From Rudaea sp. 3F27F6 (lineage in GTDB: Bacteria > Pseudomonadota > Gammaproteobacteria > Xanthomonadales > Rhodanobacteraceae), in contig NZ_SCNG01000002.1 in the NCBI RefSeq assembly GCF_005503555.1, positions 558,001 through 622,000 on the forward strand: a DNA stretch of 64,000 nt, read 5' to 3'. The notes below the pieces were generated by a model. It did not search any database. It was not told the origin of the DNA and worked only from the letters and a program-made list of their open reading frames with translations. Made by a program: the position numbers and the translations under genes. Shown in pieces: positions 46,872 to 59,279 of this stretch (its first letter is position 1; every line of letters begins with the position of its first letter).

Positions 46872-47888
46872 TCAGGTCGCGCGCACGACCAGCCGGCTCG
46901 GCAGGATCTCGGAAGACACCGATTCACCGCGGAACAGCGCGAGCGCCTTGCGCGCCAGCAGCACTCCGCCTTCGTGCCAGTTTTGGTGGACCGACGACAG
47001 CGCGGGAATAAAAGCCGCGCCGAGCGGCGTGTCGTCGTAGCCGATCACGGAAACGTCCTCGGGCACGCGCTGGCCGTTCTCGATCAACGCACGCACCGCA
47101 CCCATCGCGAGCAAGTCGTTGCAGGCGAACACCGCGTCGAAGCGCGCCTTCTTGCGCAGCAGCGCATGCACCGCCTCGAATCCCGATTCGGCGGTGAACG
47201 CTTTGTGGTTGACGACCAGCGGCGCGATGCCGTGCTTCTTCAGATGCCTGACGAAACCGGTATGGCGCTCGGCCATTTCCGCATGATCGGTGTCGCCGAG
47301 AAAAACCGGATGATGCCGGCCAAGCGAGACGAAACGTTCGGCCGCGTTCGCGCCGCCGAGGCGGTTGTCGCTGCCGACGACCACGTGCGCGTCGTCCGCG
47401 CCGGGCGCGCCCCACACGACCATCGGCAGGCGCAGGCGATCGAACAGATGCACCGCTTGTTGCTTCGCGCCCTGGCCGAGCAGGATCACCGCGTCGGCCG
47501 CCTGCACCGCCGGCGCAAGCGCGCCCTGGCGTGTGGTCAGCAGCACGCTGTAGTTCGCCGTGGCGAGTTCCTGGGCGATGCCGCCAAGCAGTTCGAGCGG
47601 ATACGGATCGGACATCGGCCGGTTGACGCTCGGCGTCATCTCGACGATCACCGCGATCGTGTGGCTTTGGCGCAGACGCAGGTTGCGCGCACTGACGTTG
47701 AGTTTGTAGCCATGTTCGGCGGCGAGTGCGCGCACCTTGTCGCGGGTCTGCGCCGAGACGATGCCGTTTTCGGAAAGCGCGCGCGACACGGTGATCTTCG
47801 AGACCCCCGCGAGCTTGGCCAGATCGGCCATCGTCATCGCGTTTTCCGCCGCGATCGCGGGCCTGCTGCTGCGGTTGGATTTGGCCAT
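46872..47888 (-). CDS. LacI-family transcriptional regulator
   Basis: A 338-aa sugar-responsive repressor. The HTH is in MADLAKLAGVSKITVSRALSENGIVSAQTRDKVRALAAEHGY, then the hinge ARNLRLRQSHTIAV and a periplasmic-binding-protein-like effector domain (FDAVFACNDLLAMGAVRALIENGQRVPEDVSVIGYDDT). It is divergent from the GH65-phosphoglucomutase gene, and a 42-bp palindrome lies 105 bp from its start, so it most likely controls this locus and itself. The effector is probably the transported sugar or a breakdown product. A shorter start at MTMADLAKL is possible. Confidence 0.93.
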   Translation of the reverse strand: MAKSNRSSRPAIAAENAMTMADLAKLAGVSKITVSRALSENGIVSAQTRDKVRALAAEHGYKLNVSARNLRLRQSHTIAVIVEMTPSVNRPMSDPYPLELLGGIAQELATANYSVLLTTRQGALAPAVQAADAVILLGQGAKQQAVHLFDRLRLPMVVWGAPGADDAHVVVGSDNRLGGANAAERFVSLGRHHPVFLGDTDHAEMAERHTGFVRHLKKHGIAPLVVNHKAFTAESGFEAVHALLRKKARFDAVFACNDLLAMGAVRALIENGQRVPEDVSVIGYDDTPLGAAFIPALSSVHQNWHEGGVLLARKALALFRGESVSSEILPSRLVVRAT

Positions 47889-47992
47889 GCGCCGACTACG
47901 CCCGATCTTCGATCGGCTCCGCCGACCTCGCGCCTTAGTGTGGCGTTTCGCTGCCGGCACGTCCAATTTACCGCCGCTTTCGTGTGCGTCCG

Positions 47993-48034
47993 CAGCAAAT
48001 GATATCGGTATCTTGATATCGATACCATTTGCTG
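47993..48034. promoter_or_regulatory. 42-bp near-perfect palindrome, likely LacI-family operator
   Basis: The arms read CAGCAAATGATATCGGTATC and, on the other strand, CAGCAAATGGTATCGATATC; they differ at only two positions. Within it, TGATATCGATACCA and TGATATCGGTATCT are two overlapping LacI-type sites with central CG, spaced 14 bp. It lies between the divergent regulator and GH65 genes. Confidence 0.75.
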
Positions 48035-48117
48035 TTACGTTTTCGCGAACGACAGCGTCGGCGGTCCGCGAAAGGGGTTCACGCACCAGCCGCGCGCGAA
48101 CATGGGAGGGAATATCG

Positions 48118-48216
48118 ATGCACCTGCAAAGGTTCGATGCGCTGATGCGCGCGTCTTCGCCGGCGTCCGCGGGATTCCGCTCCACGTCATCCGCTGCGAT
48201 CGGGATCTGCGCGTGA
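48118..48216 (+). CDS. Possible 32-aa upstream leader ORF coupled to the GH65 gene
   Basis: An ATG at 48118 has an ideal Shine-Dalgarno, GGAGG with 8-nt spacing, the best ribosome-binding site of the region. The frame reads MHLQRFDALMRASSPASAGF and ends at TGA 48214-48216. That stop overlaps a GTG (48213-48215) in the frame of the GH65 gene, a standard coupling arrangement (GTGA). The peptide has no known similarity. It may be a leader that couples translation, or the GH65 start may be elsewhere. Confidence 0.4.
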   Translation: MHLQRFDALMRASSPASAGFRSTSSAAIGICA

Positions 48217-51200
48217 ACGATACGGTTCCTGCCGCGCCGTCCGCAGCGATCCGCAGTGCAGATGCCGCTGCGTCCGCCACGTTGCCGGCACGCGACGCAC
48301 GCCGCATCACCCAGACTCAATGGCAGCCCGACCAGGCCGCGCGCGACGAAACTCTGTTCGCGCTCGCCAACGGCGCACTCGGTGTGCGCGGCGGCCTCGA
48401 AGAATCCGCGAGTGCGACCCAAGGCAGCTTTATCGCCGGCGTCTGGGAACGCAGCGCGATCGACTACCACGAGCGCCATCACGGCTTCGCGCGCACCACC
48501 GATACGCGTGTGCCGGTCGCCGACGCGACGGCGATCCGCATTTTCCTCGACGATATCCTGGCCGACCCGGCACAGGGCCGCGTGCTCGCCTTCGAGCGCA
48601 CGCTCGACCTGCACGCGGGCACCTTGCTGCGTAAGCTGACTTTCCAGACACCGACCGGCGCCACGTTCGAAGTGCGCGCACAGCGCATCGTCGCACTCGC
48701 CCATCCGGGCCTGCTCTGTCTGCGCTGGACCTTGCGCTCGCTCGACTACGCCGGCCCGATCGCGCTCGAATCCGCGATCGTCGGCGACGTCGCCGCGGTG
48801 GCACAGGGTGACGATCCGCGCTTCGGCACAGGCGCGGGGCTCGCGCTGCAAGTCACCGACGCGGCGGCCGACGCACACGAAGCGCGGCTCGCGCAATGCA
48901 CGCGGCAGAGCGCGATCGGCGTCGCCTGCGTGCAGCGCCATCGCGTCGTCGGCGCTGCCTTCGCCGCCGCCGAAGCCGACGCGAACGCAGCGCGGCAATG
49001 GTTCGTCGCCGAGATCGCCGCAGGCGAAGAAATCACGATCGAGAAATACGCCGCCTACGCCTGGACTCTTCCGGGCGGCAGTGAATCCGCCGCGGATTTG
49101 TATAAATCGGCACAAAGTACACTCGATGCGGCGATGCCTCTCGGCTTCGATGCGCTTGCGCGCGCCCAGGCCGACGAAGTCGCCGCGTTCTGGCGCGGTG
49201 CCGACATCGGTGTCGACACCGCAGACGGCCGCGATGAGCAGGCGCTCGCCTTCAACTTGTTCCATCTGTTCCAGTCGGCCAACCGCGACGGCCGCGGCGG
49301 CATTGCGGCCAAGGGACTGACCGGCGAAGGCTACGAAGGTCACGTGTTCTGGGATTCGGAAACTTTCGTCCTGCCGGTCTTCGCCTTCACCGCCCCCGCG
49401 CTGATGAAGCCGTCGCTGGTCTGGCGCTATCGCGCGCTCGAACGCGCACGCCTGCATGCGCGCGAAATGGGCCATGCGCGCGGCGCGCTGTATCCGTGGC
49501 GCACGATCGCGGGGGACGAATGTTCGGCGCATTACCCTTCGGGTTCGGCGCAGTACCACATCAATGCGGCGATCGCGTTCGCCGTGCGCCTCTACGTCGA
49601 TGCAACCGGCGACCGCGCCTTCCTCGCCGAGATGGGCGCGGAAATCCTGATCGAGACCGCGCGCATCTGGCTGCAGATCGGTTACTTCAATGCGCGCCGC
49701 GACGGCGCGTTCTGCATCTGCGCGGTGACCGGGCCCGACGAATACACCGCACTTGTCGACAACAACTACTACACCAATCGTATGGCGCAGGAACATCTGC
49801 GCTACGCCGCGGCAACGATGCGCACGCTAGAAGCGCAGTCGCCTGATGTCTATGCCGCGCTCGCAAACAAACTGGCGCTGAGCGCCGCGGAAATCGCCGA
49901 GTGGTCGCACGCGGCCGAAGCAATGTACCTGCCCTACGACGAAAAACTCGGCATCGTCGCCCAGGACGACACCTTCCTCGACAAACCGTTGTGGGACGTC
50001 AAGGGCACTCCGCCCGAGAAATTCCCGCTGCTGATGCACAACCATCCGCTGACCTTGTACCGCCATCAGGTGTGCAAGCAGGCGGACGCGCTGCTCGCCT
50101 TCGTTCTCGCCGATTCGGCCCAGGTCGATCCGGCGGTGAAGCGGCGCAGCTTCGATTACTACGAAGCGATCACCGTGCACGACTCGACTCTGTCGCCGTC
50201 GACTTTCGGCATCCTCGCCGCCGAACTGGGCTATGCCGACAAGGCGCAGGAGTACTTCCACGAAAACCTGCGCATCGACCTCGACGACCTGCATGCGAAC
50301 ACCAGCCACGGCGCGCACATGGCCGCGATGGCCGGAAGCTGGCTCGGCCTCGCCTGGGGCTTCGGCGGCCTGCGCGTGCGCGACAGCGCGCTGCATTTCG
50401 ATCCGATTCTGCCGCCCGGCTGGCGCGGCTACCGCTTCGGCCTCGTCTGGCAGGGCCGCAAACTCGACATCGCGGTCGCGGCAAACGCCGTGACCTACAC
50501 CCTGCGCGACGGCGCCACGCTCGACATCTTCCATGGCGACACACGTGTCGCTCTCGTCCCGCGCGAAGCACAAACCCTCGCGCTCGGCGAGCATGCTCTA
50601 CCGAATCCCCAATCCCGAATCCCCAATCCCCGCTCCTACAACGCCCTGATCTTCGATCTCGACGGCGTACTCGCCGATACGGCGCATTTGCACCACGCCG
50701 CCTGGAAGCGCCTCGCCGGCGAACTTGGGCTGGCATGGGACGATGCGATCGGCGAGCGGCTCAAAGGCGTCGACCGCATGGCCTCGCTCGATATCGTGCT
50801 TGGCGATGCGGCGAAAAATTATACGAGCACGCAGAAGCACGAACTCGCCGAGCGCAAAAACGGCTACTACCGCAAAGCGATCGAGAGCTTCTCGGCGAAC
50901 GACCTGCTGCCCGGCGCGCTCGATGCGCTCAAGGCCGCGCGCGCCGCCGGCCTGAAGATCGCCCTCGCCTCGGCAAGCCGCAGTGCCAAAGAACTCGTCG
51001 AGCGCATGGGCGTCGCCGGCTTGTTCGACCACATCGTCGACTCGGCCACGATCGCGCGCGCCAAGCCCGATCCGGAGATCTTCCTGCGCGCCGCGGCAGC
51101 GCTCGACGTCGATCCTGCCAACTGCCTCGGTATCGAGGACGCGCAGGCCGGCGTCGCCGCGATCAAGGCCGCCGGCATGACCGCGCTCGGCATCGGCGAT

Positions 51201-51308
51201 GCGCGCGTACTCACCGATGCCGATGCGGTGCTGCGCGATCTGACCGAATTCGATCTGGAGAAATTCGTTGTGAAAAAACCCGTGGAAACGCTGTCTGCAA
51301 AAACCTGA
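48213..51308 (+). CDS. GH65 disaccharide phosphorylase fused to beta-phosphoglucomutase
   Basis: A 1031-aa two-enzyme protein, counted from the GTG at 48213. The N-terminal ~790 residues are a GH65 phosphorylase of the maltose/kojibiose/trehalose group: ETLFALANGALGVRG, GHVFWDSETFVLP, and catalytic acid E510 in VTGPDEYTALVDNNYYTN; KQADALL is near the phosphate site. The C-terminal ~220 residues are a HAD-fold beta-phosphoglucomutase with nucleophile D815 and acid/base D817 in FDLDGVLADT, plus SRSAKELVERMG and KPDPEIFL. Together they turn an alpha-glucoside and phosphate into beta-glucose 1-phosphate and then glucose 6-phosphate. The linker (797-808) is repeat-derived. An ATG at 48102 in frame lacks a ribosome-binding site. 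There is no signal peptide. Confidence 0.92.
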   Translation: MNDTVPAAPSAAIRSADAAASATLPARDARRITQTQWQPDQAARDETLFALANGALGVRGGLEESASATQGSFIAGVWERSAIDYHERHHGFARTTDTRVPVADATAIRIFLDDILADPAQGRVLAFERTLDLHAGTLLRKLTFQTPTGATFEVRAQRIVALAHPGLLCLRWTLRSLDYAGPIALESAIVGDVAAVAQGDDPRFGTGAGLALQVTDAAADAHEARLAQCTRQSAIGVACVQRHRVVGAAFAAAEADANAARQWFVAEIAAGEEITIEKYAAYAWTLPGGSESAADLYKSAQSTLDAAMPLGFDALARAQADEVAAFWRGADIGVDTADGRDEQALAFNLFHLFQSANRDGRGGIAAKGLTGEGYEGHVFWDSETFVLPVFAFTAPALMKPSLVWRYRALERARLHAREMGHARGALYPWRTIAGDECSAHYPSGSAQYHINAAIAFAVRLYVDATGDRAFLAEMGAEILIETARIWLQIGYFNARRDGAFCICAVTGPDEYTALVDNNYYTNRMAQEHLRYAAATMRTLEAQSPDVYAALANKLALSAAEIAEWSHAAEAMYLPYDEKLGIVAQDDTFLDKPLWDVKGTPPEKFPLLMHNHPLTLYRHQVCKQADALLAFVLADSAQVDPAVKRRSFDYYEAITVHDSTLSPSTFGILAAELGYADKAQEYFHENLRIDLDDLHANTSHGAHMAAMAGSWLGLAWGFGGLRVRDSALHFDPILPPGWRGYRFGLVWQGRKLDIAVAANAVTYTLRDGATLDIFHGDTRVALVPREAQTLALGEHALPNPQSRIPNPRSYNALIFDLDGVLADTAHLHHAAWKRLAGELGLAWDDAIGERLKGVDRMASLDIVLGDAAKNYTSTQKHELAERKNGYYRKAIESFSANDLLPGALDALKAARAAGLKIALASASRSAKELVERMGVAGLFDHIVDSATIARAKPDPEIFLRAAAALDVDPANCLGIEDAQAGVAAIKAAGMTALGIGDARVLTDADAVLRDLTEFDLEKFVVKKPVETLSAKT
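50601..50636 (+). repeat. CCCCAATCC repeat that encodes the fusion linker
   Basis: The 36 bp consist of the alternating pattern CCGAATCCCCAATCC repeated about twice, the type of dispersed intergenic repeat whose translation is PNPQSRIPNP. Here it is in frame between the GH65 and phosphoglucomutase parts and carries no stop codon. Confidence 0.7.
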
Positions 51309-51385
51309 CCGCCGCGGACCCGCAACGCAGAATTCGCGGGCCGACGGTAACAACAAAACATATTCATATTTTGGAGGGAGAACCC

Positions 51386-54013
51386 ATGAAGCGAACGAAC
51401 ACCACGCACGCGAACGCGCCGTGCCCAAAAACGATTCGGCTGGCGCTGACCGTCGCGATCCTCGCCGCACTGACTCCGATGATCGCGCTCGCCGCCGATG
51501 CCGCACCGGCGCCATCGCCCGATCCGCAAGCCGCCGCGGCGGCCGCGCCCGCCGCCGCGCCGAAAAACGCCGCGCAGGCGGCGAAGACCGAAACCCAGAC
51601 CCTCGAAGGCATGGTCGTCACCGGCTCGGCCTCGAACAACGGCGTGAAGAAGATCGACGCGAGCTACATCATCACCGCGGTCAACGCCGAGCAGATCAAG
51701 CAGGCCAACCCGAAGAGCACCGCGGACCTGCTCAAGGTCTCGCCTGGCCTGTGGCCTGAATCGACCGGCGGTCAGACCGGCGCGAACATTGAAATCGCCG
51801 GCTTCCCGGGCGGCGGCGACGCGCCCTACTTCACCACGATGATGATGGGCTCGCCGCTGTACGGCGCGCCGACCCTGTCGTTCTTCGAGACGACCTCGGC
51901 GTTCCGCCTCGACGACACGATCGAGCGCGCGGAAATCGTGCAGGGCGGCCCGACCGTCGTGCTTGGCCCCGGCCAGATCGGCGCGACCGCGAACTTCATC
52001 CTCAAGCAGGGCACGAGCGAGCCGTCCGGTTCGATCGGCATCACCTACGGCGACGAAGGCCTGTGGCGCCTCGACGGCTTCTACGGCTTCAAGATCGCCG
52101 ACGGCTGGTACGGCAGCATCGGCGGCTTCTGGCGCACGTCCGACGGCGTACGTTCGCCGGGCTTCAAGGCCGACCAGGGCGGCCAGCTCACGGCGACCTT
52201 GACCCACGATCTCGACAACGGTTCGTTCACGCTGTACGCGCGCCGCATCGACGACAAGAACCAGTTCATCACGCCGATTCCGCTGCACCAGAACAGTCCG
52301 GGCAATTTCAGCGCTTATCCGGGCTTCGATCCGCTGACCAGTACCTACTACAGCAAGGCGATGCAGAACGTCACGCTGCAGGGCGCGTACGGCCCGGTCA
52401 ACGCCGACCTCGGCAACGGCCGCGGCGCGAAGATGAATTTCTTCGGCGGCAACTTCGACTACGAAATCGCCGGCTGGTCGATCTCGGACAAGTTCCTCTA
52501 CAACGAAGGCGACATGAACACCAATGCCCTGTTCTCGGGCAACAACACCAAGCCGCTGAGCTACTACCTCTACGGTTGCAACATTCCGAACGGAGTGTTC
52601 TGCGGCCCGGGCGGCAAGCCGCTGGATTCGGACAATCTCAACCTTGCCGCAGGCACGCCCTACTCGGCTGTCTATACGACCGGCGGCAATGTGCCGCTCA
52701 CGCAAAGCGTGGTGCACCAGGGCTGGTGGTACATCCAGAAGCATCTGAAGAACCTGGTCAACGACCTGCGCGTCAGCCGCGAGATCTTCGAGGGCAATAC
52801 GCTGACCGTCGGCCTGTATCTCGCGCACTACACCGACGACGACAAGTGGTCGCTCGGCAATCAGATGCTGATGAGCAATACGCCGAACGCCAAGCCGATC
52901 GTGCTGAGCTATCAGCAGAACGGGCATACCTACTACGTCTCGAACAACCAGGGTTTCAGCGACTTCAACGGCAACTACAACATTGCCGAGAAAGGCAGCG
53001 CCAACAACAAGGCACTGTACATTTCCGATTCCTGGCGCGTCGACCGCTGGCTATTCGATGCCGGCATCCGCGTGGAGAACCAGCAAGCCCATCTGCTCGT
53101 GTGCAACCAGAGCAAGAGTGACCTCGATGGCAATCCGTACACGCTGTACGACAATCTAGTTCCGTCATGCAACGGCACGTTCACGCGTACCGACTACGAC
53201 AAGACTCATCCGGCGTTCTCGGTCGGCGCAAACTACGAGATCGCCGACAACATGTCGGCCTATGCGCGCGCGACCAAGGGACCGCATTTCGGCGACTTCG
53301 ACAACACCCTGCGCGGCAACGCGACCGGCAATACGCCGCCCGTGCAGAAGCTGCAAAGCTTCGAGATCGGCTACAAGTTCCAGAACGAATGGATCTTTGC
53401 CGACATCAGCGCCTACCATCGTCAGTTCAGCGGCCTGACCTATCAGCCGACGACGCAGAGCGGCGTGCCGACCGGCCCGACTTCGGTCTACGGTTCGGAT
53501 TCCAAGGGCGTCAACGTCACCGGCTATGTTTCGCCGTTCGAGAATTTCCGCGTCGATTTCACCGGCAACTACCAGGACGGCAAGTACTCGCACTACAACG
53601 CCTGCCAGACCTATACCGACGTCAACACGGGCGAGCAGCTCTGTGCGGTGATCAACGGCGTGCAACTGCAGCGTCAGCCGAAAGTGCGCTTCTTCCTGAC
53701 GCCGAACTACCGGATTCCGTTCGAGTGGGGTTCGTTGATGGCCTTCGTCACCTACACGCACGTCGGCGACCACACCCAGGATCTGTCCGGCCTGCAACAG
53801 CTCGGCAGCTACAACACCTGGGACTTCGGCGTCGTCGCCAACGTCGGCAAGAATTGGGAGTTCCGCATGCAGGGCACGAACCTGACCAACGAGCTCGGCC
53901 TGACCGAGTCGAACTCGCGCTTCTTCGGCAACACCGCGGGCGTCGACGGCACCATCCTCGCGCGTCCGCTCGAAGGCCGCGAGATCAACGTGCAGGCGAA
54001 GTACAAGTTCTGA
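51386..54013 (+). CDS. TonB-dependent receptor of the carbohydrate locus
   Basis: An 875-aa outer-membrane transporter. The signal peptide (about 1-37) is followed by an Ala/Pro/Gln-rich stretch, a TonB-box-like segment (TLEGMVVTGSAS), the plug (IITAVNAEQIKQANPKSTADLLKVSPGLWP ... IEIAGFPGGGDAP ... ERAEIVQGGPTVVLGPGQIGATANFIL) and the barrel ending VQAKYKF with a terminal phenylalanine. The ATG at 51386 follows GGAGGGAG. It lies 77 bp after the fused phosphorylase gene and is followed by a strong terminator, so it probably imports the substrate of this locus. Confidence 0.92.
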   Translation: MKRTNTTHANAPCPKTIRLALTVAILAALTPMIALAADAAPAPSPDPQAAAAAAPAAAPKNAAQAAKTETQTLEGMVVTGSASNNGVKKIDASYIITAVNAEQIKQANPKSTADLLKVSPGLWPESTGGQTGANIEIAGFPGGGDAPYFTTMMMGSPLYGAPTLSFFETTSAFRLDDTIERAEIVQGGPTVVLGPGQIGATANFILKQGTSEPSGSIGITYGDEGLWRLDGFYGFKIADGWYGSIGGFWRTSDGVRSPGFKADQGGQLTATLTHDLDNGSFTLYARRIDDKNQFITPIPLHQNSPGNFSAYPGFDPLTSTYYSKAMQNVTLQGAYGPVNADLGNGRGAKMNFFGGNFDYEIAGWSISDKFLYNEGDMNTNALFSGNNTKPLSYYLYGCNIPNGVFCGPGGKPLDSDNLNLAAGTPYSAVYTTGGNVPLTQSVVHQGWWYIQKHLKNLVNDLRVSREIFEGNTLTVGLYLAHYTDDDKWSLGNQMLMSNTPNAKPIVLSYQQNGHTYYVSNNQGFSDFNGNYNIAEKGSANNKALYISDSWRVDRWLFDAGIRVENQQAHLLVCNQSKSDLDGNPYTLYDNLVPSCNGTFTRTDYDKTHPAFSVGANYEIADNMSAYARATKGPHFGDFDNTLRGNATGNTPPVQKLQSFEIGYKFQNEWIFADISAYHRQFSGLTYQPTTQSGVPTGPTSVYGSDSKGVNVTGYVSPFENFRVDFTGNYQDGKYSHYNACQTYTDVNTGEQLCAVINGVQLQRQPKVRFFLTPNYRIPFEWGSLMAFVTYTHVGDHTQDLSGLQQLGSYNTWDFGVVANVGKNWEFRMQGTNLTNELGLTESNSRFFGNTAGVDGTILARPLEGREINVQAKYKF

Positions 54014-54044
54014 TCGCTGGCGGTTTGTTCGTCCTCTCCGACGA

Positions 54045-54088
54045 GCGGTCCGGGCTGCCTCCCCGCAGATACCGGGCCGCTTTTTTTT
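54045..54088 (+). terminator. Terminator after the receptor gene
   Basis: GCGGTCCGG pairs with CCGGGCCGC over 9 bp (one wobble pair) and is followed by eight T. It lies 31 bp after the receptor stop and ends the first transcript of the locus, though read-through into the sulfatase gene is possible. Confidence 0.88.
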
Positions 54089-54118
54089 GCGGACGGACCA
54101 ACGCAAGGATCATTGCGC

Positions 54119-55558
54119 ATGACGATCAATCGCCGCGAATTCCTCGCCGCGGGCCTGGCAGCAGCAGCCACGCGCCTGCGCGCGCAGGCGCCACGCCGGC
54201 CTGACGCCGCGCACCGGCGCAACGTGCTGCTGATCGTCGCCGATGATCACGGTTACGATCTCGGCTGCGCGGGCGGCAAAGTGCGCACGCCGACGCTCGA
54301 CGCGCTCGCGCGCGATGGTGTGCTGTTTACCGATGCCTACGCGTCGGTATCGTCGTGCAGTTCGAGCCGTGCGACCTTGTATACGGGCCTGTATTCGCAC
54401 ACCAACGGCATGTACGGGCTCGCCCACGACGTACACAATTTTTCCCTGCTCGACGACGTCAAGACGCTGCCGTGGATGCTCAAGCAGGCCGGCTATGCGA
54501 CGGCGCTCGTCGGCAAGCTTCATGTGAAGCCCGAAGCCGCGCTCGCCTACGACGCGTGGCTCGAACCGGAACGGCCGCTCGTGCGCGACGTCGCCGCGAT
54601 GGGCCACGCCGCCGGCAAATGGCTGCGCGAACAAGGCCCGCGGCCGTTCTTTCTCACCGTCGCCTACAGCGATCCGCACCGCGCGGGCGACGCGTCGAAT
54701 TTCGGCAATACGCGCGACTGGCCCGAAGTGAAGCGCGAGCGCTACGCACTGGTCGACGTCGCGATCCCGTCGCATCTGCCCGACCTGCCCGGCGTGCGCG
54801 CCGACCTCGCCGAGTATTACGAGGCCGTCAGCCGCATGGACGCCGGCATCGGCATTCTGCTGCGCGAACTCAAGGACACTGGCCACGCAGACGATACGCT
54901 GGTGATCTACCTGTCCGACAACGGCCGCCCGTTTCCGGGCGCTAAGGACAATCTCTACTACGAAGGCATCCATCTGCCGCTGATCGTGCGCGCACCGGGC
55001 GCGGCGAAGCGCGGCTTGCGCAACCGCGCGATGGTCAGCTGGATCGACATCGCACCGACCGTTCTCGACTGGACCGGCGCCACGCCGCCCAAGGACTATC
55101 GTTACCTGCCCCTGCCCGGCCGCTCGATCCTGCCGCTTCTCGGCGAGGCCGATGCGACCGGCTGGGACGAAGTGTTCGCCACGCACAGCTTCCACGAGAT
55201 CGACCAGTACTATCCGACGCGCAGCCTGCGCACGCGTCGCTACAGCTATTTCCTCAATCTGCAGCCGGCGCTCGAAGTGCCGATCGCAAGCGACGTGGCG
55301 CTGTCGCCCGCATGGAAGGCAATCACCACGACGCCCGGCGCACGGCTCGGCAAGCGCACGCTCGACGCGTTCCACCACCGTCCGGCCGAGGAGCTGTACG
55401 ATCTCGCCGCCGACCCCGACGAAGTCGTCAATCTCGCCGGCAAGGCCGAGCATGCGCAGACGCTGGCCGATCTGCGCCGCCGCCTCGACGTCTGGCGCAC
55501 CGCGACGCACGATCCCTGGCAGAAAGGCGTGACCGACCCGTTCGGGCGCGCGCACTGA
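54119..55558 (+). CDS. Tat-exported sulfatase (formylglycine type)
   Basis: A 479-aa sulfate-ester hydrolase of the arylsulfatase superfamily. The N-terminus has a twin-arginine signal (NRREFLAAGLAAAATRL). Metal residues D42/D43 are in IVADDHGY; the modifiable cysteine is C80 in CSSSRATLYTG, where the usual CxPxR proline is a serine; SDNGRPFPG holds more metal ligands. The surrounding SVSSCSxSRA pattern is near N-sulfoglucosamine sulfohydrolase-like sulfatases. A maturase is needed for C80 but none is in the window. Periplasmic desulfation of the imported sugar is inferred from its neighbours. Confidence 0.88.
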   Translation: MTINRREFLAAGLAAAATRLRAQAPRRPDAAHRRNVLLIVADDHGYDLGCAGGKVRTPTLDALARDGVLFTDAYASVSSCSSSRATLYTGLYSHTNGMYGLAHDVHNFSLLDDVKTLPWMLKQAGYATALVGKLHVKPEAALAYDAWLEPERPLVRDVAAMGHAAGKWLREQGPRPFFLTVAYSDPHRAGDASNFGNTRDWPEVKRERYALVDVAIPSHLPDLPGVRADLAEYYEAVSRMDAGIGILLRELKDTGHADDTLVIYLSDNGRPFPGAKDNLYYEGIHLPLIVRAPGAAKRGLRNRAMVSWIDIAPTVLDWTGATPPKDYRYLPLPGRSILPLLGEADATGWDEVFATHSFHEIDQYYPTRSLRTRRYSYFLNLQPALEVPIASDVALSPAWKAITTTPGARLGKRTLDAFHHRPAEELYDLAADPDEVVNLAGKAEHAQTLADLRRRLDVWRTATHDPWQKGVTDPFGRAH

Positions 55559-55576
55559 AACGACGAGAGAGAGCGA

Positions 55577-56845
55577 ATGACGAATCGATTCCGCATGGTC
55601 CTGGCCCTCGCGCTGATCTACGTGATCTTCGCGATCCTGCTCAACAGCGTCGGCACGGTGATCCTGCAGTCGATCGCGACCTTCGGCGTGACCAAGCCGC
55701 AGGCGAGCAACCTGGAGCTGTTCAAGGATCTGCCGATCGCCGTCACCTCCCTGCTCGTCGCCTCGTTCCTGCCGCTGCTCGGCTACCGGCGCGCGATGAT
55801 GATCGCGCTCGCCATCGTCGGCGTGGCCTGCATCGTGATGCGGCTCTATCCGGGCTTCCACACGACCGAGCTGCTGTTCATGTGCACCGGTATCGGCTTC
55901 GCTCTGGCGAAAGTCTCGGTGTACTCGTCGATCGGCCTGCTCACGCGCGACCCGACCGAACACTCGCGCCTGACCAACACGATCGAAGGCATGTTCATGG
56001 TCGGCGTGCTCGTCTGCGGCTGGCTGTTCAGCGCCTTTATCGACGACAAGAATCCGGCGAATCCGGTCTGGTTCAACGTCTACTGGCTGCTTGCCGCGAT
56101 CTGCTTCCTCGTCGTCGGTCTGCTTGCAACCTCGCAGCTCGACGAATCCGCCGCGCACAGCGCGGCGACCAACTCGCTCAAGGGTTCGCTAGCGGAAATG
56201 CTGCGCTTGTTCCTGCGCCCGCTGATCTACGTGTTTCTCGCCTCGGCCTTCCTCTACGTGCTGATCGAGCAGAGCTTCAGCACCTGGCTGCCGACCTTCA
56301 ACAACGAGATCCTCAAGCTGCCGCACGCAATGAGTATCCAACTCGCGACCATCCTCGCCGGCACCACCGCACTCGGCCGCCTCGCCGCGGGCCAGGTGCT
56401 GCGCCGCGTGCCGTGGTACGTGCTGCTCAATATCTGCGTGATCGGCATGGGCGTGCTCGTCGTGCTGGTGCTACCGCTCGCACGCGATGTCGTCGGCCGC
56501 GCCGACGTCGGCTGGTTCGACGCGCCGGCCGCGGCCTACCTGATTCCACTGATCGGCCTGCTCATGGCGCCGATCTACCCGGTGATCAACTCGGTCGTGC
56601 TCAGCTCGCTGCCGAAGCCGGCACACGCGGCGATGATGGGCCTGATCGTGATCTTCTCCGCACTCGGCGGCACGCTCGGTTCGCGCATCACCGCGATGGT
56701 GTTCTCCGCGTTCGACGGCATCCATGCCTTCTATTTTTCGCTCGTGCCGATGACGCTCGTGCTGATCACGCTGTACTTCTTCAAGCGCGAAACCAATCGC
56801 GCGGGCGTCGGCGCGCCGGTCGAGGTGAAACTGGCGGCGAAATGA
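55577..56845 (+). CDS. MFS sugar transporter
   Basis: A 422-aa inner-membrane carrier with about 12 transmembrane segments in two halves. GLLTRDPTEHSRLTNTIEGMFMVG and LMAPIYPVINSVVLSSLPKPAHAAMMG resemble the FucP-type sugar:proton symporters. It begins 18 nt after the sulfatase stop with a GAGAGAG site, so the two share a transcript. It should import the sugar released in the periplasm to the cytosolic phosphorylase. Substrate is inferred from the locus only. Confidence 0.88.
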   Translation: MTNRFRMVLALALIYVIFAILLNSVGTVILQSIATFGVTKPQASNLELFKDLPIAVTSLLVASFLPLLGYRRAMMIALAIVGVACIVMRLYPGFHTTELLFMCTGIGFALAKVSVYSSIGLLTRDPTEHSRLTNTIEGMFMVGVLVCGWLFSAFIDDKNPANPVWFNVYWLLAAICFLVVGLLATSQLDESAAHSAATNSLKGSLAEMLRLFLRPLIYVFLASAFLYVLIEQSFSTWLPTFNNEILKLPHAMSIQLATILAGTTALGRLAAGQVLRRVPWYVLLNICVIGMGVLVVLVLPLARDVVGRADVGWFDAPAAAYLIPLIGLLMAPIYPVINSVVLSSLPKPAHAAMMGLIVIFSALGGTLGSRITAMVFSAFDGIHAFYFSLVPMTLVLITLYFFKRETNRAGVGAPVEVKLAAK

Positions 56846-56851
56846 CAGACG

Positions 56852-56990
56852 TTCCTTCTCCCCGCGGGAGAAGGTGCCCGAAGGGCGGATGAGGGAGAAG
56901 CCTTTCGGGTGGTGGCGGCATTGCGCTCTGCAATGTCTTTCCCTCATCCGGCGCTGTCGCGCCACCTTCTCCCGCCGGGAGAAGGAAAGC
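56852..56990. repeat. Dispersed intergenic repeat, CTTCTCCC family, copy 2
   Basis: The left unit (CCTTCTCCCCGCGGGAGAAG ... GCGGATGAGGGA) and right unit (TCCCTCATCCGGCGCTGTCG ... CCCGCCGGGAGAAGG) are inverted relative to each other around ~50 bp of unlike sequence. Each unit has a CTTCTCCC/GGGAGAAG stem. It lies between the MFS and secreted GH65 genes and matches copy 1 at 24150-24285. Confidence 0.8.
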
Positions 56991-57002
56991 AAAGGAAACT
57001 CC

Positions 57003-59279
57003 ATGAAACGGCGCAACCTCGCCTTCATCTCTCTTCTTCTCTCCAACGCAGCCCTTGCCGCCACCGACCCGAGCTTCCTGCTCACCGGCACGGCCAAGGA
57101 CTTCGACGCCTATTTCCCGAGCTACCTCGCCAACGGCTGGTTCTCGACCATGACTTCGGTGCGCGGCACCGAGCCGAACATGGCCTACATGGTCGCGTTC
57201 ATGGACTACAAGCAGGACGACATTTCGCGCCCCGCGGCAATCCCCGGCTGGAGCGAGATCGACTACAACCAAGGCGGCGGCTGGCTCAACTCGACCCGCG
57301 TCGCGCCGCACATCTTCACCGACTACGCGCAGACGCTGGACATGCACGACGCCACGCTGACGACGAGCTACCGCTTCGTCTATGCGAACAAGGCGACCGA
57401 CGTGAAGGTCACGACCTTCGTCAGCCAGTCCGCGCAGCATCTCGCCGCGACCCGGCTCTCGATCACGCCGCAGTTCGACGGCGACGTGCAAATCACCTTC
57501 CCGATCCGCCTGTGGAGCGAGCATGCTCCGCGTCTGCCGATCGGCAAACTGACCGGCGACCAGATGATCGCTTCGGTGATCGCGAGCGGGCAGACCCTCG
57601 ACAATAAGCCGATCCCCTACTCCGACCGCGAGGCGGTCTGGTATCACGGCGTCACGCGCGTATCGGGCGCCGACGGCGACGCGAAAGATCTGACCCTGTG
57701 GCTCGACGGCCGCGCCGAGCAAGGACTGACGATGGCCGAGGCCGCAGCGATTTCGCTGCCCAAGGATCTGACCGTCGTCGACGCCAAACTCGAAAAGAGC
57801 GAGGTGAAACTGTCGCTCAACCTCGTCGCCAAAGTACAAAAAGGCAAGACGTATACTTTCACCAAATACGTCGCGATCACGCGCGACGGGCGTGTACCGG
57901 GCGCATCGCCAAGCAAAATCCAGGGCAATGAATCGCGCAGCTACGATGCCAAGGCGACGCTAACGCTCGCCAAGGCCGCGCGCAGCGAAGGCTTCGACAA
58001 ACTGCTCGCCGCACACCAGGCCGCATGGCATGAACTGTGGAAGACCGACATCGTCGTCGACGGCGATGCGAATGTGCAGAAGGCGATTCATTCCGATCTC
58101 TACTACCTGCTCTCGAACACCACGGTCGGCACGGCCTGGGCGATGGGCGCTTGCGCGCTGACGCCGAACTACGCCGGCCATGCGTTCTGGGACTCGGACG
58201 CCTGGGTCTTCCCCGCGCTGCTGCTACTACATCCCGAGCGCGCCAAGCCGATCGTCGAATTCCGCCATCGTACGATGCAGCCCGCACGCGAGCGTGCCAA
58301 GCAGTACGGCGTCAAGGGCACGATGTATCCGTGGGAGTCCGACCCGGAAACCGGCGTCGACAACACGCCGCATTTCGCCTACGACGTGTATCGCGAAATT
58401 CACGTCAACGCCGACATCGCCATCGCACAGTGGCAGTACTGGCTCGCCAGCGGCGACAAGAAGTGGCTGCACGACAGCGGCTGGCCGGTGATCCGTGAAA
58501 TCGCCGAGTTCTGGAAGAGCCGCGTGACCTACGACCAGGGCCGCGACCGCTACGAAATCCACCACGTCACCTCACCCGACGAGGCCTACAACGACGTGCC
58601 GAACGACTCCTTCACCAACGCCGCCGCGCAAAAGGCGCTGCGCATCGCAGTCGCCACGGCCGGTCTCGTCGGCGAGAAAGCCGATCCGGCCTGGGCGGAC
58701 ATTGCGCAGAAGATGTACATCCCGTTCGATGCGAAGAACCAGCGCCATCTCGACTTCGACGAAACAGTGCCGCACGACAAGATCACCTGGATGGGCTCGT
58801 CGCTGTCGTGGTTGTCGTATCCGAATCTCGATCTGACGATGTCGCCCGAGGTGCGCAAGAACAACTACGATTTCCAATTGCACGAACTCAAGGTCCACGG
58901 CGACGACCCGAACGAGATGATGATGGTGATGCTCGCCGTGCACGCCTCGTCGATCGGCAACTACCAGGCCGCGGGCGAATGGGTCGAGCGCAACCTCGTC
59001 GGCTTCCTCAAGGCGCCGTTCAACGTGCGCACGGAAACCGTAGCGAACAATGCGGGCTACATCCTTGCCACGTCGGCTGGCTTCATCCAGAGCTTCCTCT
59101 ACGGCTTCACCGGACTGCGCATCGACAACGAGGGCCTGCACGAAGCCTATGCGCCGACCCTGCCGGCGCAGTGGAAGTCGCTGAAGCTGCAGAACGTCGC
59201 GTTCCGCGGCCAGCGCTACGACATCAGCGTCGAACGCGACGCCGCGGGCAAGACGACCCTGAAGAAAAAGAAACGCTGA
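57003..59279 (+). CDS. Secreted GH65-family glycoside hydrolase
   Basis: A 758-aa exported enzyme. The signal peptide is MKRRNLAFISLLLSNAALAA. The (alpha/alpha)6 barrel part has AGHAFWDSDAWVFPALLLLHP (391-411), GTMYPWESDPETG and the catalytic-acid region HHVTSPDEAYNDVPNDSFTN with E527. This pattern is that of GH65 hydrolases (acid trehalase, kojibiose hydrolase, ATHL1/PGGHG-like) rather than phosphorylases; the general-base residue I cannot assign. It should cut an alpha-glucoside in the periplasm before import. The ATG at 57003 is chosen for its signal peptide. The lysine-rich tail (TTLKKKKR) is unusual. Confidence 0.87.
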   Translation: MKRRNLAFISLLLSNAALAATDPSFLLTGTAKDFDAYFPSYLANGWFSTMTSVRGTEPNMAYMVAFMDYKQDDISRPAAIPGWSEIDYNQGGGWLNSTRVAPHIFTDYAQTLDMHDATLTTSYRFVYANKATDVKVTTFVSQSAQHLAATRLSITPQFDGDVQITFPIRLWSEHAPRLPIGKLTGDQMIASVIASGQTLDNKPIPYSDREAVWYHGVTRVSGADGDAKDLTLWLDGRAEQGLTMAEAAAISLPKDLTVVDAKLEKSEVKLSLNLVAKVQKGKTYTFTKYVAITRDGRVPGASPSKIQGNESRSYDAKATLTLAKAARSEGFDKLLAAHQAAWHELWKTDIVVDGDANVQKAIHSDLYYLLSNTTVGTAWAMGACALTPNYAGHAFWDSDAWVFPALLLLHPERAKPIVEFRHRTMQPARERAKQYGVKGTMYPWESDPETGVDNTPHFAYDVYREIHVNADIAIAQWQYWLASGDKKWLHDSGWPVIREIAEFWKSRVTYDQGRDRYEIHHVTSPDEAYNDVPNDSFTNAAAQKALRIAVATAGLVGEKADPAWADIAQKMYIPFDAKNQRHLDFDETVPHDKITWMGSSLSWLSYPNLDLTMSPEVRKNNYDFQLHELKVHGDDPNEMMMVMLAVHASSIGNYQAAGEWVERNLVGFLKAPFNVRTETVANNAGYILATSAGFIQSFLYGFTGLRIDNEGLHEAYAPTLPAQWKSLKLQNVAFRGQRYDISVERDAAGKTTLKKKKR

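Follow-up and report, generated by a model that had tools for sequence, protein, structure and literature searches.

Published work on GH65 ties substrate specificity to positions 64, 392, 394, 402, 416, and 585, with the motif TRIGPP in a confirmed trehalose phosphorylase, EEAPxx in kojibiose phosphorylases, and KV[MF]NES in maltose phosphorylases; the family also holds uncharacterized subgroups (De Beul et al. 2021, PMC8537180; here and below, cited papers are represented by excerpts). In its excerpted part, a 2023 review gives GH65 trehalose phosphorylase as reported only in Gram-positive bacteria and also lists beta-type activity for Plesiomonas and Bradyrhizobium (PMC10969515). Among hydrolases, the kojibiose hydrolase FjGH65A has Lys538-Gln539 at subsite −1 of its active site, a pair called conserved (PMC8626586). 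Characterized S1_8 sulfatases, which include human SGSH (PMC5066984), work at the 2-position, on galactose-2-sulfate, xylose-2-sulfate, and N-sulfoglucosamine (PMC12549532); Sidhu et al. report that SGSH has Arg282 where O-sulfatases have a conserved lysine and that this arginine forms a bridge to Asp32 and Asp399 (PMC4014121). Sulfotrehalose, which bears its sulfate at C2, has been described as a solute: it serves haloalkaliphilic archaea as an osmolyte and also occurs in a mycobacterial sulfolipid (PMC1224877). Here, we describe a locus at bases 46872 to 59279 of a 64,000-nucleotide stretch (the window) of the 5.70-Mb genome of Rudaea sp. 3F27F6, in which genes for two GH65 proteins and an S1_8-type sulfatase lie together.

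We tentatively read this block as a locus under LacI control that takes up and degrades trehalose or a near derivative of it, with a 2-O-sulfatase added in a minority of species, and give this reading somewhat less than an even chance. A sequence-only reading of the same DNA had claimed six genes: a LacI regulator, a GH65 phosphorylase-beta-phosphoglucomutase fusion, a TonB-dependent receptor, a sulfatase, a major facilitator superfamily (MFS) carrier, and a secreted GH65 protein. All six are present in that order, the regulator on the minus strand and the others on the plus strand, with open frames and matching domains, and the alpha-glucoside-type locus that it drew from their compartments, with a cytosolic phosphorylase-mutase and a secreted GH65 hydrolase, is coherent. 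Gene content, catalytic residues, and the linkage of the sulfatase to the locus are evident from the sequences.

For the route itself, we infer substrate, order of steps, and regulation, along with compartments that were read by eye. The TonB receptor would carry the sugar across the outer membrane, periplasmic enzymes would trim it, and the MFS carrier would import the trimmed disaccharide. The cytosolic GH65 domain would phosphorolyze the disaccharide to glucose and beta-glucose 1-phosphate, and the fused mutase would convert the latter to glucose 6-phosphate. In some species, the S1_8 sulfatase, after Tat export and maturation by formylglycine-generating enzyme, would strip the 2-O-sulfate from the nonreducing alpha-glucose and leave a product usable by the carrier and the phosphorylase. 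A more specialized proposal, which we consider unlikely, is a dedicated locus for 2-O-substituted trehaloses with sulfotrehalose as a food, where interchangeable periplasmic trimmers (the 2-O-sulfatase, the divergent GH65 exo-hydrolase perhaps taking off a 2-linked sugar, and an esterase in relatives) would unmask trehalose for import and phosphorolysis.

Predicted substrate of the phosphorylase-mutase fusion

The fusion comprises GH65 N, m, and C domains (Pfam, 377.5 bits) and a beta-phosphoglucomutase domain (TIGR01990, 225.9 bits against a cutoff of 189.4), and its phosphate-site STLSPS and its GPDE, with the general acid, align with kojibiose and maltose phosphorylases. At the specificity positions, the alignment gives R392, I394, and A402, the first two common to 29/29 aligned fusion proteins; T64 and P416 come from a manual rereading anchored on the maltose phosphorylase LbMP, not from aligner output. 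Read in this way, these residues are close to the trehalose phosphorylase fingerprint TRIGPP, and the domain is a candidate for trehalose phosphorolysis. Kojibiose phosphorylase and maltose phosphorylase were both rejected as assignments, with R392, I394, and A402 standing where EEAPxx or KV[MF]NES residues would be. A specificity other than trehalose is possible because GH65 has uncharacterized subgroups. In-frame stops were flagged in 13 fusion genes; in L022 and L033, both frame-correct, the stop is the natural gene end, and L032 has none.

To place the window among relatives, we examined 40 stretches in which genes were called by codon usage and labeled by BLAST against the window genes with a 40% label limit, each gene type in the relatives' loci being taken from one Pfam-checked member (the esterase is of the Abhydrolase_3 type). 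Left out of the locus counts were L096 (fusion gene missed by the caller), L107 and L108 (contig pieces with the fusion on another contig), and L105 (31%). Contig ends cut some stretches, and absences are minimum statements. The 29 fusion-bearing loci, window included, carry the receptor in 28 cases, in agreement with the sequence-only reading that had joined it to the GH65 genes, the MFS gene in 26, the secreted GH65 gene in 20, the esterase in 17, a GH37 gene in 6, and the sulfatase in 5.

Loci that do not carry the fusion bear on its substrate. Where the fusion is missing and a secreted GH65 is at least 40% identical (L098 to L104), a GH37-cluster gene is present in 7/7 loci and the MFS gene in 0/7, compared with 6/29 and 26/29 among fusion-bearing loci (Fisher 2e-4, relatedness not corrected). 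The GH37 cluster was typed from one member (Pfam Trehalase, 7.5e-97). A search at E 1e-60 detected the fusion gene in 32/119 genomes, none of them among those of L098 to L104, which come from four genera and hence are not seven independent events. It is as if a periplasmic trehalase stood in for import and phosphorolysis, and this pattern gives independent support to a trehalose-type core. Of the sulfatase-bearing loci that were read, L073, L111, L113, L114, L115, and L119 have GH37, and the window, L069, L071, L074, and L112 do not.

The sulfatase and its tie to the locus

The sulfatase has a CSSSR motif and, as its best characterized relatives, SGSH and S1_8A, which places it in S1_8. Its closest solved structure is human SGSH (3e-96, the next being 2.8e-39), and the best Foldseek match of its model is the sulfamidase 4miv; the models of both this protein and the secreted GH65 were of middling quality, with mean pLDDT values of 71.5 and 67.7, respectively, and served for fold matches only. 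Over aligned columns, identity is ∼44% to SGSH and 30% to S1_8A. The formylglycine (FGly) residue, metal-site Asp/Asn, and active-site His residues of S1_8 are kept. The position of SGSH R282 is Lys in the window protein (Lys276 counted from the ATG at 54119) and in 23/23 retrieved relatives; at D399, the window protein has Ala, and the 16 closer relatives (L109 to L124) have either Ala or Ser. Sulfatases commonly have Lys at the first of these positions, and the alignment held no bacterial Arg282 sequence as a positive control. From these two residues and the 2-position precedent of S1_8, we predict an O-specific enzyme acting at the 2-position of an alpha-glucoside, i.e., a 2-O-sulfatase, alpha-glucose being suggested by the GH65 neighbors. 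The obvious best candidate for the substrate is 2-sulfotrehalose. Identity as a true sulfamidase (N-sulfoglucosamine sulfohydrolase) was rejected on the loss of R282 and D399. Elsewhere, the genome has two matches to the family of the formylglycine-generating enzyme and another five sulfatase genes that pass the Pfam cutoff.

In a family sample searched at E 1e-100, the fusion gene was found in 110/233 genomes and the sulfatase in 13/233. The combination is not due to chance: in all 13, the fusion gene lies 2.8 to 4.1 kb away and a secreted GH65 gene is on the same contig; sulfatase-fusion copresence has a hypergeometric probability of 3.9e-5 (presence alone, relatedness not corrected). Of the 11 copies whose gene order was read, three are in the order receptor-sulfatase-MFS (the window, G008, which the grouping of relatives places in the same genus, and G011) and eight in the order MFS-sulfatase, the sulfatase being beside the MFS gene in both slots. 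By coordinates, it directly precedes the secreted GH65 gene in 9/13, including G159 and G228 (coordinates only); in G271 (L119), a 91-residue GH65-like piece follows it and the full GH65 gene is 2.3 kb further on. The neighborhood comparison that the sequence-only reading had set as a refuting test gave a split outcome: the GH65 locus often occurs by itself, the sulfatase being missing in 97 of the 110 fusion-bearing genomes, but within the family the sulfatase is bound to the locus (13/13). What that reading took for a candidate new locus is therefore not a new locus but a subtype of a common family locus to which the sulfatase is tied.

Divergence follows the same neighbor. Pairwise distances of the sulfatase correlate with those of the MFS carrier (rho 0.87, 11 loci, 0/2000 Mantel permutations as high), compared with 0.15 to 0.32 for the fusion, receptor, or LacI (11 loci; LacI 0.32) and 0.26 for the flanking pilR (8 loci). 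The genes flanking the block in many other genera are ones that we take to be pilS and pilR. Correlations with the secreted GH65 are uninformative, as two paralogue types are mixed. On the MFS tree, a minimum of three gains or losses of the sulfatase is required by secure branches, and this patchy presence suits an accessory gene that an existing locus has acquired and also lost.

Scanning one genome per species with the sulfatase alignment yielded 23 loci, of which 10 are within a GH65 locus (L109 to L116, L118, and L119); the L112 sulfatase was missed by the gene caller, and its match sits between the MFS and GH65 genes. The 11 in-locus sulfatases form one clade against L117 and L120 (98/97). 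The neighbor gene in L117 has no Pfam match. In Segniliparus rugosus (L123:8842-11430), a related sulfatase, its match poorly aligned in the first half as if by a frame change, is beside a TauD-family dioxygenase.

The secreted GH65 protein is nearest by sequence to FjGH65A (7fe3, 2.5e-72) and human PGGHG, and 7fe3 is also the best Foldseek match of its model. It is predicted to be a hydrolase because it keeps the general base Glu (Glu616 of FjGH65A) and Trp391-Glu392; the general acid is kept as well. At subsite +1, Thr407 of FjGH65A is replaced by Asp. The Lys538-Gln539 pair is missing, in a loosely aligned region where PGGHG's own pair is one column off, and a Lys some residues away is not invariant in the clade. 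Against the kojibiose hydrolase model NF053734, the protein scores 346.7 bits, compared with a cutoff of 800. An ordinary kojibiose hydrolase was rejected on this score and on the absence of Thr407 and the Lys-Gln pair. A second GH65 paralogue type differs at the same positions, and several relatives carry two diverged tandem copies.

Other genes accompany the secreted GH65 gene or extend the locus in relatives. A tetratricopeptide repeat (TPR) protein that ends in a 2OG-Fe(II) oxygenase domain lies beside the secreted GH65 gene in L069, L073, L081, and others, and some loci also have a separate small 2OG-Fe(II) oxygenase there. In G025 (L089:1-7104), the GH65 locus runs on after the MFS gene with tannase, GH95, GH39, and NAGLU-type genes.

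Several observations weigh against a trehalose locus with an added 2-O-sulfatase. At position 402 of the fusion, where the published motif has Gly, 22 of the 29 proteins have Ala, 5 have Ser, and 2 have Gly; the automatic alignment gave E at 64, a gap at 416, and P at 585; and positions 64, 416, and 585 depend on gap placement, the P at 585 possibly being off by one. No clear role on trehalose can be assigned to the secreted GH65. The trehalase link rests on relatives, GH37 being absent from the window's own genome, and G048 (L105), the eighth genome without the fusion, whose GH65 match of 31 to 33% is weak, does not fit, having no GH37-cluster gene. For the sulfatase, beyond its absence from most fusion-bearing genomes, an 8-locus subset gives distance correlations of 0.85 with LacI and 0.59 with the esterase; its label on the MFS tree needs 8 changes against 9.5 when shuffled (81/500 as low, clustering not significant); and neighboring genes may move jointly even when their functions are not coupled. 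The terminator-like hairpin between the receptor and sulfatase genes means that a single transcript is not assured. Beyond the family, related sulfatases lie outside loci of this kind: in 13/23 scan loci (L121 and L131 poorly called), no fusion gene, receptor, MFS, or secreted GH65 gene was called; G088, from another family of the order, has a 45% partial sulfatase match and no GH65 locus; and in L120 (10001-14195), a sulfatase 69 to 70% identical is followed by the glucuronate isomerase UxaC and a probable mannonate-type dehydrogenase. In the literature examined, sulfotrehalose is documented for haloalkaliphilic archaea and Mycobacterium tuberculosis only.

One alternative is that the sulfatase is a passenger, or a sulfur-scavenging gene, on the promoter of a locus whose sugar is not sulfated. 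We judge this unlikely. Its absence from 97/110 fusion-bearing genomes, the forced gains or losses with nonsignificant label clustering, and the Segniliparus relative that adjoins a TauD-family dioxygenase, a type known from sulfur assimilation, all fit a passenger; they have to be set against the location of all 13 copies in the locus, the two slots that are each beside the MFS gene (11 loci), a divergence that matches the MFS carrier and not pilR, and the five other sulfatase genes that the genome holds.

Two further explanations concern the sugar. A locus for alpha-1,2-linked glucosides (kojibiose, alpha-1,2-branched dextran pieces, or glucosyl-galactosyl units), with the fusion handling the imported product, strikes us as quite unlikely: the fusion is without the EEAPxx residues, the secreted GH65 falls well below the NF053734 cutoff without Thr407 and the Lys-Gln pair, the six genes include no GH66, GH31, or GH97 enzyme, and the GH37 pattern is left unexplained. 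These outweigh, for us, the kinship of the secreted GH65 to FjGH65A and PGGHG by sequence and to FjGH65A by fold, the retained Trp391-Glu392, and the fact that FjGH65A belongs to a dextran locus that also encodes a TonB-type transporter (PMC10316084). Processing of an N-sulfated or glycosaminoglycan-like glucoside by a true sulfamidase is highly improbable, even with SGSH as by far the closest structure (3e-96 versus 2.8e-39) and with the tannase, GH95, GH39, and NAGLU genes that follow the MFS gene in G025, since R282 is Lys in the window and all 23 relatives, D399 is Ala or Ser in L109 to L124, no polysaccharide lyase is among the six genes, and G025 is outside the 13 sulfatase genomes. Of the readings considered, we continue with the trehalose-type locus with an accessory 2-O-sulfatase.

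Gene layout and regulation

Features of the locus in the window, with predicted roles and the evidence for each
Feature	Position	Strand	Evidence
LacI-family regulator, 338 aa, divergent from operon	46872..47888	-	18 NCBIfam matches, almost all to models of the LacI family
Candidate LacI operator, overlapping palindromes around TGATATCGATACCA	47998..48030	.	LacI-fusion intergenic region
GH65 phosphorylase-beta-phosphoglucomutase fusion, predicted cytosolic	48213..51308	+	Pfam/NCBIfam; nearest PDB entries are maltose and kojibiose phosphorylase
TonB-dependent receptor	51386..54013	+	PF00593 5.7e-21, PF07715 4.5e-10; ATG with GGAGGG upstream
Intrinsic-terminator-like hairpin with a T8 run behind it, in the receptor-sulfatase gap	54043..54088	+	-26.6 kcal/mol
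Tat-type FGly sulfatase, S1_8 by nearest relatives, predicted 2-O-sulfatase	54119..55558	+	PF00884 3e-45
MFS carrier	55577..56845	+	PF07690 1.6e-27
Secreted GH65-type hydrolase, divergent	57003..59279	+	PF03632 2.4e-46; nearest PDB entry 7fe3

The best NCBIfam match of the regulator is the RbsR model (4.9e-43), with no model over its cutoff, and coordinate 46872 is the 3′ end of its gene. The start of the fusion is unsettled between the GTG at 48213 and an in-frame alternative ATG at 48102, both leading to the end at 51308. The N terminus of the sulfatase, read by eye, is of the Tat type (N-RREFL), its FGly motif is C-S-S-S-R, and the GH65 protein at the end of the locus has a Sec-type signal, also read by eye. 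No further gene was called among the six, and no SusD-type protein is beside the receptor, which is flanked by the fusion and sulfatase genes. Pfam and NCBIfam gave no GH66, GH31, or GH97 enzyme or polysaccharide lyase among the six genes. Upstream of the locus are an ABC transporter and lon (translations read); downstream are a histidine kinase, a response regulator, and a methionyl-tRNA synthetase-like gene.

The double palindrome between the LacI and fusion genes is the likely LacI operator. An ATCGATA palindrome is the best one in 18/26 divergent LacI-fusion intergenic regions, window included, and the operator pattern has its sole zero-mismatch genome match at window position 48014; with up to two mismatches, it has seven genome matches (two at the window site), compared with one for a reversed control. 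At a one-mismatch site near sigma-factor-like frames, the sole other site inspected, no regulon was seen. A sigma-70 promoter scan gave 0 hits, compared with a shuffled mean of 2.0. The hairpin has a z score of −3.23, with 0/200 shuffles as good, and was not listed by a terminator scan with loops of 3 to 8. Similar hairpins follow the receptor gene in same-genus loci with the sulfatase (L069 and L071) and without it (L072 and L108); because the latter two also have the hairpin, the sulfatase sits in the space between hairpin and MFS gene.

Comparison with described systems

No description of the locus or of a Rudaea sulfatase, and none of the breakdown of sulfotrehalose or trehalose-2-sulfate, was found among the listed titles and abstract starts of the open-licence PMC literature. 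The cluster offers a testable enzyme set for sulfotrehalose breakdown. If our reading is true, fused trehalose phosphorylase-mutases occur in Gram-negative bacteria, and the range of S1_8 widens from galactose, xylose, and glucosamine to glucose. The analysis also flags a clade of GH65 hydrolases with an altered subsite −1.

The fusion resembles GH65 trehalose phosphorylase (EC 2.4.1.64) in its phosphate-site serines, in R392 and I394, and probably in T64 and P416; it differs in being fused to beta-phosphoglucomutase, in its Gram-negative host, and in a position 402 that is mostly Ala. With the kojibiose hydrolase FjGH65A (NF053734), the secreted GH65 shares secretion, the general acid and base Glu, and Trp391-Glu392, whereas its score is below the model cutoff and Thr407 and Lys538-Gln539 are replaced. 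The sulfatase is like those of S1_8 (human SGSH and the lambda-carrageenan enzymes S1_8A/B/C) in sequence, fold, FGly, and metal-site and His residues, yet it combines an O-sulfatase-like Lys at R282 with a closer relationship to SGSH than to S1_8A. As a locus, the nearest parallel is the FjDexUL dextran locus of Flavobacterium johnsoniae, which shares a TonB-type transporter and a secreted GH65; the excerpt of its description lists SusD, GH66, GH31, and GH97, and a cytosolic GH65, an MFS carrier, and a sulfatase are missing from that list (PMC10316084). SusC/SusD polysaccharide utilization loci differ in that no SusD-type gene is beside the window receptor. Compared with these systems, what is known is the GH65 core, which is widespread in the family, and what is new is the minority variant with a sulfatase that probably desulfates the sugar first, which would be a route for feeding on sulfated trehalose.

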